Source: Lachnospiraceae bacterium
GTDB taxonomy: Bacteria; Bacillota; Clostridia; Lachnospirales; Lachnospiraceae
Direction of reading: 5' to 3'
NCBI GenBank assembly: GCA_017964055.1
Contig: JAGCSS010000377.1
Span: 1-10,384, forward strand
DNA length: 10,384 nucleotides
Of this stretch, positions 4,725-10,384 are shown piece by piece. The notes under the pieces are model-generated. The model saw only the letters and a program-made list of their open reading frames with translations. It made no database searches and was not told where the DNA came from. The stretch's first letter is position 1, and the number at the start of each line of letters is the position of its first letter. Position numbers and translations under genes: made by a program.

Positions 4725-4785
4725 TTGCGGAGCGAAAGGCAAGCAGAATCCGCCGAAGGCGGAACTGCGAGTGCCTGTAGTGCAA
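4725..4785 (+). other. Intergenic long imperfect hairpin before the small unknown gene
   Basis: The 78-nt gap between the DUF342 gene and the next gene can fold almost completely. TCCGCC (4749-4754) pairs with GGCGGA (4758-4763) around a GAA loop. GCAG (4743-4746) then pairs with CTGC (4765-4768), AGGCA (4737-4741) with TGCCT (4772-4776), and the ends TTGC (4725-4728) with GCAA (4782-4785). There is no T-tract after it, so it is not an intrinsic terminator. It ends four nt before the AAGGAG ribosome binding site (4789-4794) of the next gene, so it could act in mRNA processing, stability or translation. It does not match the consensus of a c-di-GMP riboswitch as I know it. Confidence 0.6.
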
Positions 4786-4799
4786 CGGAAGGAGATACT

Positions 4800-5129
4800 A
4801 TGATCACTCCTATCGAAATGTATACTATGGTTCCGAAGTCACAGGAAGCTACGCAGGTCAGGCTGGGCGAGCAGACGAAGGATATGTCCAGGATGGCTGA
4901 GATCACCCAGCATATCGAGCAGAATGCGAACGACAACGCCAACCGCACGGTAAGGATGTCGGAAGCTACTAACCCCGAATACCGTTACGACGCCAAGGAA
5001 AAAGGCAATAACGAGTATTCTTCCGGTGGGGGCCGGGGCAAGGGTGAGGAGCACGAAGAGGAAGAGGACAAGGAACCTAAGGTCAGGAATATGACCGATC
5101 ATCCCGGAGGGATAGATATCAGGATTTAA
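4800..5129 (+). CDS. Small hydrophilic protein of unknown function
   Basis: 109 residues from ATG 4800, chosen because AAGGAG (4789-4794) lies five nt upstream. The frame extends back to 4725, but that stretch is the intergenic hairpin and has no start with a ribosome binding site. There is no signal peptide or membrane segment. The N-terminus (ITPIEMYTMVPKSQEAT) looks ordered and conserved in style. Residues about 20-50 are helical and rich in Gln, Asn and Met. A low-complexity Gly/Lys/Glu-rich stretch (about 71-92) follows, and the protein ends in GIDIRI. The family is not one I can name. Being between a DUF342 gene and a SwrB-like gene, it is probably a flagellar-operon accessory protein, by context only. 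Confidence 0.75.
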   Translation: MITPIEMYTMVPKSQEATQVRLGEQTKDMSRMAEITQHIEQNANDNANRTVRMSEATNPEYRYDAKEKGNNEYSSGGGRGKGEEHEEEEDKEPKVRNMTDHPGGIDIRI

Positions 5130-5159
5130 AGGCTTGTTAACAGGGGGATATGTAATTAA

Positions 5160-6041
5160 ATGACAGGGCTTGAGATAACTTTATTTATATTGGGCGCGGC
5201 TTTTATAATCATCAGCTTTTTTATCGTCGGAGGAAACGAAAGGACTCCCCGTGATGCCGCCCGCAGCGCATTGGACGCCAATGTGCTCGAGCAGATGCAC
5301 GAGGATTTCGTTGAGAAGGCGAATAAAAGGGCTGATTTCCTTTTGCATGAAACAGAAGACAAGCTCGAATCACTTTCAAACGATAAGATCATAGCGGTAG
5401 GCGAATATTCGGACCAGATGCTCGAAAAAATTGAGAGCAACCACAAGGAGGTCGTATTCCTCTACCAGATGCTGAACGAAAAGGAAGAAGCACTCAAAAG
5501 CACGGTGCTCGGTATGGAAAATACCAGGATCGAATGCGAGAAGATGATACGTGACGCGGAGGCTGCGCGTGAGGCCGTCGATAAGGCTGCCGCAGCTGCG
5601 GAGAGCAGACTGAGCGCCGCTGTTGCCGCGCGTGCCGCAAAGCCTGCGGTGCAGACGACCGCAGCTGCCGGAGCAAAGCCTGCCGCACCCGCTGCGCGTA
5701 CAGCAGCCGCAAAACCCGCTGTGTCAGCCGGCACGAAGACCGCTGCCGCAGCGACCGGAACGGCACCAGCGAAGACGGCCGGCACCGCCGCAAAGCCCGC
5801 TTCGGGCGGGACGGGAGCGAAACCTGCGGCGCGTCCGCAGACTGTCAGACCTGCGGCACCCGCTGCTCCTTCGTTTGACAGCATGATCGGCGCACCCACG
5901 GAGAATCTCGATACGGGCGCTATCAACCGCAACGATGAGATCATTGCTCTGCACAAGAGCGGAAAGTCAGTCATGGAAATATCCAAACTCCTCGGAATGG
6001 GACAGGGAGAGGTAAAGCTTATCATAGACCTTTATTGCTGA
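5160..6041 (+). CDS. SwrB/YlxL-like membrane-anchored coiled-coil protein with C-terminal helix-turn-helix-like motif
   Basis: 293 residues from ATG 5160, ten nt after AGGGGGAT. A single N-terminal hydrophobic helix (about 3-23) should anchor it in the membrane. Residues about 35-160 are predicted coiled coil with many Glu, Lys and Ala, including KEVVFLYQMLNEKE. Residues about 157-238 are a low-complexity Ala/Pro/Lys/Thr linker with repeated AAKPA-like units. The C-terminal 37 residues contain EIIALHKSGKSVMEISKLLG followed by GQGEVKLIIDLY, a helix-turn-helix-like module. This order (one TM helix, coiled coil, small C-terminal helical module) and the location between sigD and rpsB match B. subtilis SwrB (YlxL), a membrane protein that promotes flagellar type III secretion activation and hook-basal body completion. 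Overall identity to SwrB is expected to be low, so the assignment rests on architecture and synteny. DNA binding is not implied. Confidence 0.75.
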   Translation: MTGLEITLFILGAAFIIISFFIVGGNERTPRDAARSALDANVLEQMHEDFVEKANKRADFLLHETEDKLESLSNDKIIAVGEYSDQMLEKIESNHKEVVFLYQMLNEKEEALKSTVLGMENTRIECEKMIRDAEAAREAVDKAAAAAESRLSAAVAARAAKPAVQTTAAAGAKPAAPAARTAAAKPAVSAGTKTAAAATGTAPAKTAGTAAKPASGGTGAKPAARPQTVRPAAPAAPSFDSMIGAPTENLDTGAINRNDEIIALHKSGKSVMEISKLLGMGQGEVKLIIDLYC

Positions 6042-6060: not shown

Positions 6061-6879
6061 ATGAAACTGAAATACTATATGAGAGGAGTCGGAACGGGCA
6101 TACTGTTCACCCTGTTCATTTTCGTGGTGATCATCATTCCGAACCTCAAGCTTGAAAACAGGATAAAAGAAGCCACGGCGAACGAGGAGAACGCCGGCGG
6201 CAGCGGCAAGGACGACGAGATATCGTCTCTGGTTGGGAAGAATGACAAGACGGAGCCTACGCCGTCACCGGTGGAGGGGCCTACATTGTCACCTACACCC
6301 ACGCCGCCGTCCACCGAGCCTGACAGCTCACCCACACCGGTTGAGAGTTCTCTGGAAGACCCTACGGCAACACCTACGCCTGCGGACGAACCTACGGCCA
6401 CGCCTACACCCACAAAGGCACCCACGGTGACGCCTACATCTACGCCGACAAAGGCACCTACGGCGACACCTACGCCTACGAAGGCACCCACGGCGACGCC
6501 TACACCTACGCCCACGAAGGCACCTACACCGACTCCTTCGCCTGCGCCTACGCCCACACAGGCGCCCACACCGACACCGAGTCCTACACCTACGCCCACA
6601 CAGGCGCCTACTCCGACTCCCGGACCTTCGACGCCTACGCCCACTCCGTATGTGGATTCGACCGGAACTCTCAAGTTTACGATCACTAAGGGCATGACTT
6701 CGGAGACATTCAGTAAGGCTCTCGAGAGATACGGCATTATCGATGACTGGCAGGCCCTCAATTCGTATATCGGGCGCCACGGTTACTCGGAGAAGATCCA
6801 GGTAGGGACCTTTACCTTTACAAAGGGCATGAGTTACGACGCGATCTGCAAAAAGGTAATGGGCAAGAACTATAAATGA
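6061..6879 (+). CDS. Membrane-anchored MltG N-terminal-like domain protein with Thr-Pro linker, no lytic transglycosylase domain
   Basis: 272 residues from ATG 6061, six nt after GGGGAG. An N-terminal membrane helix (about 9-28) leads into a charged stretch. A long extracytoplasmic Thr/Pro-rich linker (about 65-197) follows, built from units such as TKAPTATPTPT. The last ~70 residues (TLKFTITKGMTSETFSKALE... and IQVGTFTFTKGMSYDAICKKVMG) resemble the small LysM-like subdomain that precedes the catalytic domain of MltG/YceG endolytic transglycosylases: beta strand, helix for a 'late' position, then VGTF-x-F-x-KGM-x-Y-x-x-I. The protein stops there, so the catalytic domain with its glutamate is absent. 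It probably projects this domain into the cell wall, but what it binds is unknown. It is the last gene of the flagellar operon, followed by a terminator. Confidence 0.8.
   Translation: MKLKYYMRGVGTGILFTLFIFVVIIIPNLKLENRIKEATANEENAGGSGKDDEISSLVGKNDKTEPTPSPVEGPTLSPTPTPPSTEPDSSPTPVESSLEDPTATPTPADEPTATPTPTKAPTVTPTSTPTKAPTATPTPTKAPTATPTPTPTKAPTPTPSPAPTPTQAPTPTPSPTPTPTQAPTPTPGPSTPTPTPYVDSTGTLKFTITKGMTSETFSKALERYGIIDDWQALNSYIGRHGYSEKIQVGTFTFTKGMSYDAICKKVMGKNYK
6253..6651 (+). repeat. Degenerate tandem repeat encoding the Thr-Pro linker
   Basis: About 400 bp consist of variants of the hexamer CCTACG/CCCACG (Pro-Thr codon pairs) organised in larger units that begin AAGGCACC (Lys-Ala-Pro) or CAGGCGCC (Gln-Ala-Pro) and are roughly 27-36 bp long. 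Third-position variation keeps the units from being exact copies. Such tracts are prone to length change by slippage or recombination, and every unit is a multiple of three, so changes would keep the frame. The opposite strand also shows long open frames here, which are an artefact of the repeat composition. Confidence 0.85.
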
Positions 6880-6966: not shown

Positions 6967-7079
6967 GTTGTGCGAGTGTACAACTATGCCCATCGGGCAT
7001 AAACCATCAATCACGCATGTCCTTTTAGGATCAGGTGCGGCCCTGCTCATGACCGTCGGTCCCATGAGACGGATATGCG
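6967..7079 (+). ncRNA. Structured 5' leader of rpsB mRNA, candidate autoregulatory RNA
   Basis: Two adjacent hairpins open the leader. GTTGTGC (6967-6973) pairs with GTGTACAAC over 6978-6984 around a GAGT loop, and TATGCCC (6985-6991) pairs with GGGCATA (6995-7001). A branched element follows. CGCATGTCC (7014-7022) pairs over nine positions with GGATATGCG (7071-7079, one G-U) and encloses two hairpins: CAGG (7032-7035) with CCTG (7042-7045), and CTCAT+GACC (7046-7054) with GGTC (7058-7061) + ATGAG (7064-7068), with a two-base bulge. CCGTC (7053-7057) can alternatively pair with GACGG (7068-7072), which would break both the inner hairpin and the closing stem. S2 is known to repress its own mRNA through the leader in Gammaproteobacteria; by analogy this may be an S2 leader. 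I cannot assign it to a described RNA family. Confidence 0.6.
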
Positions 7080-7107
7080 GAAGAAAAACCAAATGGAGGA
7101 AAAGAAA

Positions 7108-7845
7108 ATGAGTGTTATTTCAATGAAACAGCTTCTCGAAGCAGGTGTTCATTTCGGACATCAGACCAGACGCTGGAACCCCAAGATGGCTCCCTACATC
7201 TATACCGAGAGAAACGGTATCTACATCATCGACCTTCAGAAGTCGGTAGGCAAGGTTGACGAAGCTTACTTCGCGATCAAGGATATCGTTGCCAACGGCG
7301 GCAAGGTTTTATTCGTAGGAACCAAGAAGCAGGCTCAGGACGCTATCAAGAGCGAGGCAGAGCGCTGCGGTATGTACTATGTTAACGAGAGATGGCTCGG
7401 CGGCATGCTGACCAACTTCAAGACCATCAAGACCCGTATCGCACGTCTTAAGGCTATCGAGAAGATGAGCGAGGACGGAACATTCGATGTTCTTCCCAAG
7501 AAGGAAGTTATCCAGCTCAAGAAGGAGTGGGAGAAGCTTCAGAAGAACCTTGACGGTATCAAGGATATGGGCGGAATTCCCGATGCTATCTTTGTTGTAG
7601 ATCCCAAGAAGGAGAGAATCTGCGTACAGGAAGCTCACGCACTCGGCATCAAGCTTATCGGTATCGCCGATACAAACTGCGATCCCGAGGAACTTGACTA
7701 TGTTATCCCCGGCAATGACGACGCTATCCGCGCCGTAAAGCTTATCGTTGCCAAGATGGCTGACGCAGTTATCGAGGCTAACCAGGGCGCAGACGCAGCG
7801 GTTTCCGCTGAGCCTGAGACTGAGGAAGCAGCAGAAGAGGCTTGA
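7108..7845 (+). CDS. rpsB: 30S ribosomal protein S2
   Basis: 245 residues from ATG 7108, seven nt after GGAGGA (7095-7100). The frame is open a further 11 codons upstream to 7075, but that stretch contains the ribosome binding site and is not conserved S2 sequence. Family landmarks are plain: [20 protein letters not shown] at the N-terminus, [36 protein letters not shown], and [19 protein letters not shown] followed by [15 protein letters not shown]. The C-terminus is a variable acidic Ala/Glu tail. S2 is a late-assembling protein of the small subunit and is needed for binding of S1-type proteins and for mRNA interaction. Codon use is strongly biased, as expected of a highly expressed gene. 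It is paired with tsf, as in most bacteria. Confidence 0.97.
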
Positions 7846-7869: not shown

Positions 7870-7899
7870 CGGGGCGAGGGCTAGCCTCGTCCCGTTTTT
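7870..7899 (+). terminator. Intrinsic terminator or attenuator between rpsB and tsf
   Basis: CGGGGCGAGG (7870-7879) pairs with CCTCGTCCCG (7885-7894), ten pairs with one G-U, around a five-nt loop, and five T follow (7895-7899). It lies 24 nt after the rpsB stop and about 15 nt before the tsf ribosome binding site. No separate promoter for tsf is visible after it, so partial read-through would set the S2:EF-Ts ratio. A comparable terminator in the rpsB-tsf spacer is known from E. coli. Confidence 0.87.
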
Positions 7900-7929: not shown

Positions 7930-8859
7930 ATGGCAGAGATTACCGCCAGCATGGTAAAGGATTTAAGAGAGAAGACCGGCGCAGGAATGATGGACTGCAA
8001 GAAGGCTCTTACAGAGACTAACGGCAATTTTGATGAGGCTATTGAGTTCTTACGCTAGTAGGGCCTTGCGGCAGCTGAGAAGAAGGCAAGCCGTATCGCC
8101 GCAGAGGGCGTTTGCGATACATATGTAAGCGACGACAAGAAGTGCGCAGCGGTTGTTGAGGTTAACTCCGAGACAGACTTCGTTGCAAAGAACGAGAAGT
8201 TAAAGTCTTTTGTTGCCAATGTTGTTAAGCAGGCAGCTTCTTCGAACGCAGCTGACATTGACAGCTTCCTTGCTGAGAAGTGGGCACTTGACACTTCCAA
8301 GACAGTTAAGGAAGAGCTCAGCTCACAGATCGCTGTTATCGGTGAGAAGCTTGATATCCGTCGTTTCGTAAAGTTCACTACCAACGGATTTATCGTTTCC
8401 TACATTCATATGGGCGGCTCACATGCTGTACTTGTTGATGTTGACGCTCCCGTTAACGACGCTACCGTTGAGGCAGCAAAGAACCTTGCTATGCAGATCG
8501 CAGCACTTAATCCCAAGTATGTTGATCAGAGCGAAGTTCCCGCAGACTTCATCGAGCATGAGAAGATGATCCTCAAGGAGCAGGCGATGAACGATCCCGC
8601 AAATGCCAACAAGCCTGAGAACATCATCGACAAGATGCTCATCGGCCGTCTCCAGAAGGAGATGAAGGAGTTCTGCCTCATGGATCAGGTTTACGTTAAG
8701 GATCAGGAGATGAGCGTATCCAAGTACATCGATTCCGTTAAGAAGGCAAACGGCTGCGAGTTCAAGGTTAACAGATTTGTTCACTACATCACCGGTGAGG
8801 GTCTCGAGAAGAGAAACGATGATTTTGCGGCAGAAGTTGCAAAGCAGATGGGAATGTAG
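7930..8859 (+). CDS. tsf: Elongation factor Ts, reading frame interrupted by two tandem TAG codons
   Basis: The frame has 310 codons from ATG 7930 (AGGAGG at 7916-7921) to TAG 8857-8859, the normal EF-Ts length. EF-Ts exchanges GDP for GTP on EF-Tu and is normally essential or nearly so. The N-terminal UBA-like domain [20 protein letters not shown] is standard, as are [22 protein letters not shown], the EF-Tu-contacting TDFVAKN (residues 82-88), and the C-terminal dimer/core domain with HMGG near residue 161. Codons 43 and 44 are both TAG, exactly where the family reads Glu-Lys in [14 protein letters not shown]. Everything before and after is in the same frame with no other damage. The only in-frame ATG after the stops is at 8410, which has lost the UBA domain and TDFV, so simple restart would not give a working protein. 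Possible causes are sequencing or assembly error, a recent double mutation with suppression or a second tsf copy, or read-through. Confidence 0.9.
8056..8061 (+). other. Tandem in-frame TAG TAG within tsf
   Basis: After CGC (codon 42), codons 43 and 44 are TAG TAG, then GGC CTT GCG continue the conserved protein. Relative to a typical GAG AAG, each codon needs only its first base changed to T (G to T and A to T), leaving the other bases and the frame untouched. tsf is also the only gene in the window that ends in TAG; the other completed genes end in TAA or TGA. Confidence 0.9.
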
Positions 8860-8883: not shown

Positions 8884-8918
8884 AAAGGGAAACGCCTGTA
8901 GCGTTTCCCTTTGTTTTT
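8884..8918 (+). terminator. Strong intrinsic terminator after tsf
   Basis: AAAGGGAAACGC (8884-8895) is perfectly complementary to GCGTTTCCCTTT (8901-8912), a 12-bp stem with a five-nt loop CTGTA. G and then five T follow (8914-8918). The A-run at 8882-8886 gives a shorter T-tract on the other strand, so weak bidirectional activity is conceivable, though no convergent gene is present. It ends the rpsB-tsf unit. Confidence 0.93.
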
Positions 8919-8970: not shown

Positions 8971-10384
8971 ATGAAAGAAAGATCTTTCTCCTTTAGGAAC
9001 GAGTTATTGTGCTTTCTGGCAATAGTTTGCGGAATAGCCTTTAATCTCGCATGCTCATCTCTGAACGGTCTGATACCTGATTCACCTATTTATCTTGACA
9101 GCATCGGCACTATCGCTGTTGCCGGTATGGCGGGCTATTTCCCCGGGATCATCACAGGTGTCGCTACCAATATCCTCAGGATATTCTTTGACCCCGAGAA
9201 TCCGTATTATGCCATACTCAGCGCGGCCATTGCCATAGCCTCCGCATTTTTCTTCGGCAAAAAACTATATAAAAAACCGGTCAATATTATTTGGCTGATA
9301 CTGTTTCTCGCTGTGATAGGCGGGATACCGGGCACCTGGATATCACGGATATTATGGGGCACCGAGATCGACAATCCGTATATCTACGAACTGTTCAGGA
9401 TATTCCATAAAAAGGTCGGGATCGGAGATACGCTTTCTGCTTATCTGTCCAATTTTGCTTTTGATATAGCGGATAAGACGATCAGCGTGATCATTGCGCT
9501 GCTGATCATGGGCTTTATTCCCGAAACGATCCGCAACAGGCTCAGGAACAGCGGTTTAAGGCAGGACTACGTTCCCGCGGATACGAGAAAGGCATCGTTT
9601 TCACAGATGCGCAGATCGATCAGTTCGGGCAGCGTTATACTGATCCTGACCGTAACTATCGTTTCCGTCGGTGCAGTGACGTGGGTCAGCTCCGTGTTGT
9701 TTGCCAGATATGTTCAGGGGCAGGCATTGAAGGATGCCGAGCATGCCATTGAGCTGGTAAAAAATAAAGATGCGATCGATCCCGATGATCTCAGGGATTG
9801 TGTCAACAACGGAGAAGCATCTCCTGCTTACGAAGATATCAAAGATAAACTTGCTGAGATCAGAAACGGTGTTACCGATGTAAAAAACCTGTTTATCGTA
9901 TACCCGGTAGAAGAAGGATTACGTGTAGTGTTTGATCTTTCCCGGCAGGAAGCCAATAAGATGTACGAGTACGGGGAGATAGCGCCTTATGTTGAAGCTT
10001 TTCAGCCGTATAAGAACGATCTGCTCCGCGGAGAGGATAAAATAGATCCGATCCGGTACGATTCGAGCAGAGGCAGTCTGCTTTTGGTCCTGAGACCTGT
10101 CAATCAGGTGTCCGGTTCGCTTGTTTGCTACATCGGCGTGGAAGTTGATAAGGCTGCGAATCTTGACTATTATCAGAATGACTTTATCATACGCGTACTT
10201 CTGATCACGGCTGCGCTGATCGTTGTGGTAATAGCGTGGAGTATTCGCCTGTCGAGGTATCGTCTGGTCCTGCCGATCAACAGTATGGCATACTGCGCAA
10301 ATGAATTCATTACCGATTAAAACAGCAGGGGAGTATACGACGAGGCGAGACGTATCAGCCGCCTCAAGATCAGTACCGGCGACG
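8971..10384 (+). CDS. Membrane sensor protein, interrupted by an in-frame stop and cut by the window end
   Basis: The start is ATG 8971, four nt after GAGGA (8962-8966); the frame runs back to 8911 but would overlap the terminator. It is open for 449 residues to TAA 10318-10320. Residues about 10-185 hold several hydrophobic helices with LDSIGTIAVAGMAGYFPGII, resembling ECF transporter S components (substrate-binding membrane subunits). A TM helix (219-243), an extracytoplasmic Cache/PAS-like region (about 244-403), another TM (404-424) and the start of a HAMP-like linker (RLVLPINSMA) follow. After the TAA the same frame continues with DEARRISRLKISTGD, which looks like the rest of that linker (family members often read ...TGDEI there), so the gene is probably longer with one broken codon. 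In related proteins the missing C-terminus is commonly a GGDEF, phosphatase or similar output domain; which one applies cannot be seen. No close promoter other than 8837-8865 was found. Confidence 0.75.
10318..10320 (+). other. In-frame TAA inside the HAMP-like linker of the membrane sensor gene
   Basis: The protein would end at EFITD, in the middle of the linker just after the second TM helix of the sensor module and with no output domain. The 21 codons that follow in the same frame are open and linker-like (DEARRISRLKISTGD). A single first-base change in CAA, AAA or GAA would produce this TAA. The open stretch alone is too short to prove continuity; the resemblance to the family linker is the main evidence. 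Confidence 0.6.

Follow-up and report, generated by a model that had tools for sequence, protein, structure and literature searches.

A tandem TAG within tsf of a fragmentary Lachnospiraceae draft genome is most likely a consensus error

The rpsB-tsf locus and its tandem stop

The window analyzed here is an entire contig (C239) of a Lachnospiraceae draft genome, 10,384 bases in length. It carries tsf, a normally essential gene for elongation factor Ts (EF-Ts), which as assembled is interrupted by two adjacent TAG codons. The following features were located in the window.

7108 to 7845, forward strand: rpsB (ribosomal protein S2), intact, upstream of tsf (PF00318, E 2.6e-102, run on 7105-7845)
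7870 to 7894, forward strand: terminator-like hairpin in the gap between rpsB and tsf (consensus match only)
7930 to 8859, forward strand: tsf, 310 codons counting the terminal TAG, with the frame interrupted at codons 43-44
7930 to 8055, forward strand: N-terminal piece of tsf, 42 codons, open (PF25025 match, E 9.6e-06)
8062 to 8859, forward strand: downstream piece of tsf, open; its first in-frame ATG, GTG or TTG is the ATG at 8410
8884 to 8912, forward strand: terminator-like hairpin 3' of tsf (consensus match only)
10318 to 10320, forward strand: second in-frame stop of the contig, TAA, 64 bases short of the contig end

The tandem TAG occupies codons 43-44 of tsf (8056-8061, forward strand) and is present in the letters as assembled, confirming both the position and the single EF-Ts frame reported by a first-pass annotation. 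The gene starts at 7930 with AGGAGG upstream and rpsB preceding it, and past codon 44 its frame is open until the TAG at 8857-8859, so that tsf is in a single frame apart from the two stops. The rpsB start at ATG 7108 was our choice, and an ATG at 7075 is also within the ORF. The sequence on either side of the stops is EF-Ts. The PF25025 match of the short N-terminal piece falls below the model cut-off, while 8410-8859 matches PF00889 (E 2e-34) and TIGR00116, the latter above its cut-off. The gene thus resembles the EF-Ts family (TIGR00116 / PF00889) in sequence, length and rpsB-tsf order, with both the profile match and the place after rpsB found, and differs from it in having the frame across the N-terminal domain split as assembled. 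Restart at ATG 8410 would lose the TDFVAKN stretch, as had been pointed out, since this stretch lies upstream of that codon. A protein resembling the 149-residue restart product was absent among the best 120 of 148 matches listed (top match 70% identity).

A single tsf was present in the draft assembly, and the tandem TAG site is likewise single-copy, carrying the stops. Exact pattern scans of the genome and of viral contigs returned no match. A truncated EF-Ts protein (P0001) of 43 residues, comprising residues 1-42 and a Lys, derives from a 733-base contig; its terminus may reflect either the contig end or a stop, and it is not decisive since residues 1-42 are common to relatives.

The first-pass annotation had also described the locus as free of other damage. 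This is accurate for tsf and inaccurate for the contig, given the TAA at 10318-10320, where both copies in the relative G009 encode Tyr and two adjacent bases differ from G009. The gene containing it starts at 8911 or 8971, and its N-terminal part resembles the ECF transporter S component NF045596, below cut-off.

Other observations were made along the contig. The hairpin at 7870-7894, a consensus match only, might reflect attenuation or separate control of tsf. Positions 6061-6879 encode a protein in which a long Thr-Pro-rich repeat linker joins a hydrophobic N-terminal segment to a weak YceG-like C-terminal domain (PF02618, below its cut-off). A chimeric join was considered at a step in identity near 4749-4789 relative to G009 contig C34 and was dropped, as gene-by-gene comparison showed a shift to faster-evolving genes; downstream of the step, rpsB (97.4%) and tsf (94.3%) are again close to G009 C34.

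tsf in related genomes

In a search of 61 genomes tsf was matched in 57, and stops inside the gene were reported only in the draft's own tsf. The closest copies by DNA identity were those of G009 (96.7% on contig C18 and 94.3%), G005 (93.8%), G021 (90.1%) and G016 (81.5%). Judged by these relatives, the organism probably belongs to a rumen-type Lachnospiraceae. Alignment with these closest relatives, proposed earlier as a check, gave Lys-Lys at codons 43-44 in all five copies from the four genomes. The Glu-Lys previously expected at this site is therefore not the pair of this lineage, although it is the commonest among the best 120 of 7,997 EF-Ts homologues, all of which have sense at both codons (EK in 100, KK in 16, ER in 3 and KS in 1). 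Compared with G009 C18, tsf differs synonymously at 22 codons and non-synonymously at 6; the stops make up two of the six, and apart from these the gene is conserved, without other decay.

These comparisons bear on whether the tandem UAG could serve programmed read-through or another regulatory role in tsf. The gene is intact on both sides of the stops and a terminator-like hairpin separates it from rpsB, which such a role would accommodate. However, the stops are not conserved, the five closest copies and the best 120 of 7,997 homologues having sense codons instead, and an Rfam search of the window up to E 1 yielded a sole match far under its gathering score and located away from the tsf stops. 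Read-through, one of the candidates raised at first, thus found no support and is considered exceedingly unlikely.

A further possibility is that the stops are real in the strain or in a minority of the population, with another tsf in the missing portion of the genome providing EF-Ts, or with the assembled allele being a dead variant. About a third of the genome is absent from the draft, leaving room for a second copy. Furthermore, G009, an assembly with 6% contamination, has two intact tsf, on contigs C18 and C34, each with rpsB before it and the same neighbor after it. With the same neighbors, these are probably two strains of one locus. Against a second gene or a dead allele, only one tsf was found, the one copy of the site bears the stops, and tsf shows no further decay; moreover, this explanation leaves the stops in chorismate synthase, FGAM synthase, the SufC-like gene and others (see below) unaccounted for. 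The second tsf suggested earlier is accordingly unsupported, and we regard this alternative as improbable.

In-frame stops across the draft

The draft comprises 2.22 Mb in 408 contigs and is 64.9% complete. A sample of 81 contigs (485.7 kb, about 22%, one contig partly) was read, together with samples of the relatives G021 (151.9 kb), G009 (377.5 kb) and G005 (261.9 kb), the latter two totaling 639 kb; the relatives' contigs are non-random, having been picked mostly because ABC transporters were listed on them. Two scans were applied: a codon-use scan for stops with coding sequence on both sides, and an alignment scan in which coding-frame ORFs of each genome were aligned to the other genomes through stops. 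Taken together, and with hits sorted by judgement, the scans placed in-frame stops within conserved frames of ten draft genes, one of them weak, in the 485.7 kb.

tsf: TAG TAG
Gene at window position 8911: TAA at 10318
SufC-like ATPase: TAG
GH3 enzyme: TAG
FGAM synthase: TAG
Chorismate synthase: TGA
Cation efflux pump: TGA
LacI-type regulator: TAA
Permease: TAG
Contig C155, position 40, at the contig edge (weak): TAG, with a downstream piece of only 42 codons

The LacI-type regulator and the permease had no DNA-level relative in the sampled sequence and were assigned by protein alignment or family matches. The same two scans, sorted in the same way, gave no such stop in G009 (377.5 kb) or G005 (261.9 kb) and one in G021 (151.9 kb). 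The G021 case is an in-frame TAG at position 1427 of contig C13 (L218), minus strand, in the nucleotide-binding domain of an ABC transporter, where five of six aligned homologues have Glu. If the per-base rate were equal to that of G009 and G005, the probability that all ten of ten stops fall in the draft would be 2.2e-4, with the sorting taken as given. A surplus of isolated stops in the draft over the relatives was thus found, by two scans that both depend on hit sorting.

In the alignment scan, 7 of 11 stop positions were kept for the draft, the other four lying ahead of a gene start or in a weak frame, while 0 of 10, 0 of 17 and 1 of 5 were kept for G005, G009 and G021, respectively. In the codon-use scan the numbers kept were 6 of 16 (draft), 0 of 9 (G009), 0 of 4 (G005) and 1 of 7 (G021). 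The G009 and G005 matches were judged to fall before gene starts, at boundaries between genes or in other frames. Twenty-four dropped rows, a part of all those dropped, were rechecked for frame, and five in which both pieces led in their own frame were examined further. Three look like gene boundaries and were not counted as stops: one between chorismate mutase/dehydratase and dehydroquinate synthase, one where a DUF2975-like protein is followed by an HTH protein, and one where an unnamed frame follows a dehydrogenase. A histidine phosphatase row with only 35 codons after the stop was also not counted. The same applies to position 691 of draft contig C250 (L192), where an in-frame TAG lies between two coding-like pieces with no Pfam match on either side.

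A comparison independent of this sorting was provided by the PF00528 permeases of whole genomes. A stop lay inside 2 of 47 matches in the draft (one TGA, one TAG) versus 0 of 140 in G005 and G009 (59 and 81 matches without a stop), the chance of both stops falling in the draft being 0.06. This result agrees with an excess in the draft and is not strong alone. The TAG case is the permease already among the ten genes; the TGA case, a permease domain on the minus strand at 5018-5614 of draft contig C386, lies outside the sampled contigs. In a search for ABC_tran domains, among the matches listed, none with a stop came from the draft and one came from G021.

As a separate observation on the assembly, draft contigs C3 (L032) and C158 (L033) both carry a tRNA-Thr(GGT) and a tRNA-Pro(AGG) at identical spacing, which suggests duplicated or strain-mixed ends.

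Recoding, base changes and the origin of the stops

The ten genes carry TAG in six cases, TAA in two and TGA in two, compared to 5.1, 2.8 and 2.0 expected from one-step codon opportunity (exact multinomial p 0.92); one-step changes from the codon use of the draft predict 51% TAG, 28% TAA and 20% TGA. TAG is if anything over-counted, as the list of segment ends that yielded the permease was complete for TAG only. The kinds of stop are therefore as codon use predicts, leaving no TAG excess for recoding to explain.

Recoding of TAG to an amino acid, or its decoding by an amber suppressor tRNA, was considered once two more genes with in-frame TAG emerged in the first 21 contigs. In favor of this reading, TAG is in frame at Lys or Glu positions of several conserved genes, and few coding-like segments end in it (10 of 203 in 21 contigs; 84 of 805 in 81 contigs under a looser rule; antisense frames included). 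The idea was dropped with TGA and TAA affected alike and RF1 intact. The RF1 frame is open over 363 residues and has the PVT and GGQ motifs, which we take to mark RF1, and neither a surplus of TAG over TAA and TGA nor loss or change of RF1 was found. Moreover, relatives carry Lys at some of the TAG positions and Glu at others, and the terminal stop of tsf is also a TAG, with a terminator-like hairpin after it. A CUA anticodon was found in none of 22 tRNAs, and a pattern for a CUA anticodon arm plus T arm had no matches in the 65% complete genome; with a third of the genome missing, the absence of such a tRNA is weak evidence. The earlier proposal to search the genome for a second tsf and a CUA tRNA was thus carried out as far as the draft permits, with neither found. 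A release-factor family search returned one member only in the draft, as against two in each of G009 and G021, so that RF2 was not found either; its absence was taken as incompleteness, because coding-like segments end most often in TGA (106 of 203). TAG reassignment described in phages and ciliates (PMC10607447, PMC11687900) resembles the present case in having in-frame TAG in conserved genes and differs in that the draft also has TAA and TGA in frame, an intact RF1 and no suppressor tRNA found. On these grounds the amber suppressor put forward in the first-pass annotation is unsupported, and recoding or suppression is very unlikely. Equally doubtful is that the strain misreads stops broadly, tolerating them in essential genes and translating the tandem UAG of tsf; no support for this was found in the analysis, and we consider the chance very small.

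Base changes could be compared with relatives at the DNA level for eight of the interrupted genes. Six have a first-position G to T: the SufC-like gene, the GH3 enzyme, FGAM synthase, chorismate synthase, the C155 case and the efflux pump, in which the third base differs too. The stop at 10318 involves a T to A and that of tsf two A to T, three bases apart. The FGAM synthase stop is accompanied by four other draft-unique first- or second-position changes within 40 bases, whereas around the SufC-like and GH3 stops the changes are third-position only, without an error cluster. G to T artefacts are known to arise from oxidative damage (PMC12390751), and first-position G to T was counted in 12 of 84 unique changes in the draft, 9 of 178 in G009 and 27 of 438 in G005. 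This mutation spectrum was set aside as evidence because it is biased, some loci having been chosen for their stop. Oxidation does not account for the A to T pair of tsf; the spacing of three bases between the two changes suggests a single event.

The tandem TAG in tsf is most likely not a real feature. It is very probably a consensus error of a fragmentary, metagenome-type draft, with the tsf of the living organism being free of it, as stray stops of all three kinds occur in several unrelated conserved genes of the same draft. An artefact had been named from the outset as the most economical reading, and this is the reading favored here. Illumina error is given as about one in a thousand bases in one source (PMC11423848), and where read overlap is low, errors of single reads could have passed into the consensus. 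In tsf, one poor stretch of a read would bring both changes, and the clusters of changes at 10318 and in FGAM synthase would fit such stretches of single reads. Further support comes from the intact flanks of the isolated stops and from their absence, by our sorting, in the samples of the two close relatives G009 and G005.

Several observations weigh against a consensus error. Independent errors would rarely give two A to T changes three bases apart, so that a correlated error must be assumed. Draft-unique substitutions at codon positions 1 and 2 (1.13% and 0.69%) are not above those unique to G009 (1.56% and 1.03%), such that the supposed error load shows only as stops. Furthermore, G009 contig names carry a coverage of about 1.5-1.6, yet the G009 sample has no stops, indicating that thin coverage is by itself an insufficient account. 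The case for error was built entirely from assembled sequence, and the sorting of scan matches was a matter of judgement. Compared with nonsense errors in the consensus of fragmentary metagenome-assembled genomes, the likeness lies in isolated stops of three kinds within conserved genes of one draft, and the difference in the adjacency of the tsf stops, both A to T, and in the first-position G to T of six of the eight genes compared at the DNA level. Related pitfalls are reported by Shulgina and Eddy, in whose account in-frame stops of pseudogenes (yeasts) and contaminating contigs (prokaryote assemblies) cause false stop reassignments (PMC8629427).

Real stops would mean that suppression or recoding operates alongside an intact RF1 in a bacterium. 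The present results instead argue for caution: before biological conclusions are drawn from a lone conspicuous stop in an essential gene of a fragmentary draft, the frequency of stops throughout that draft should be examined.
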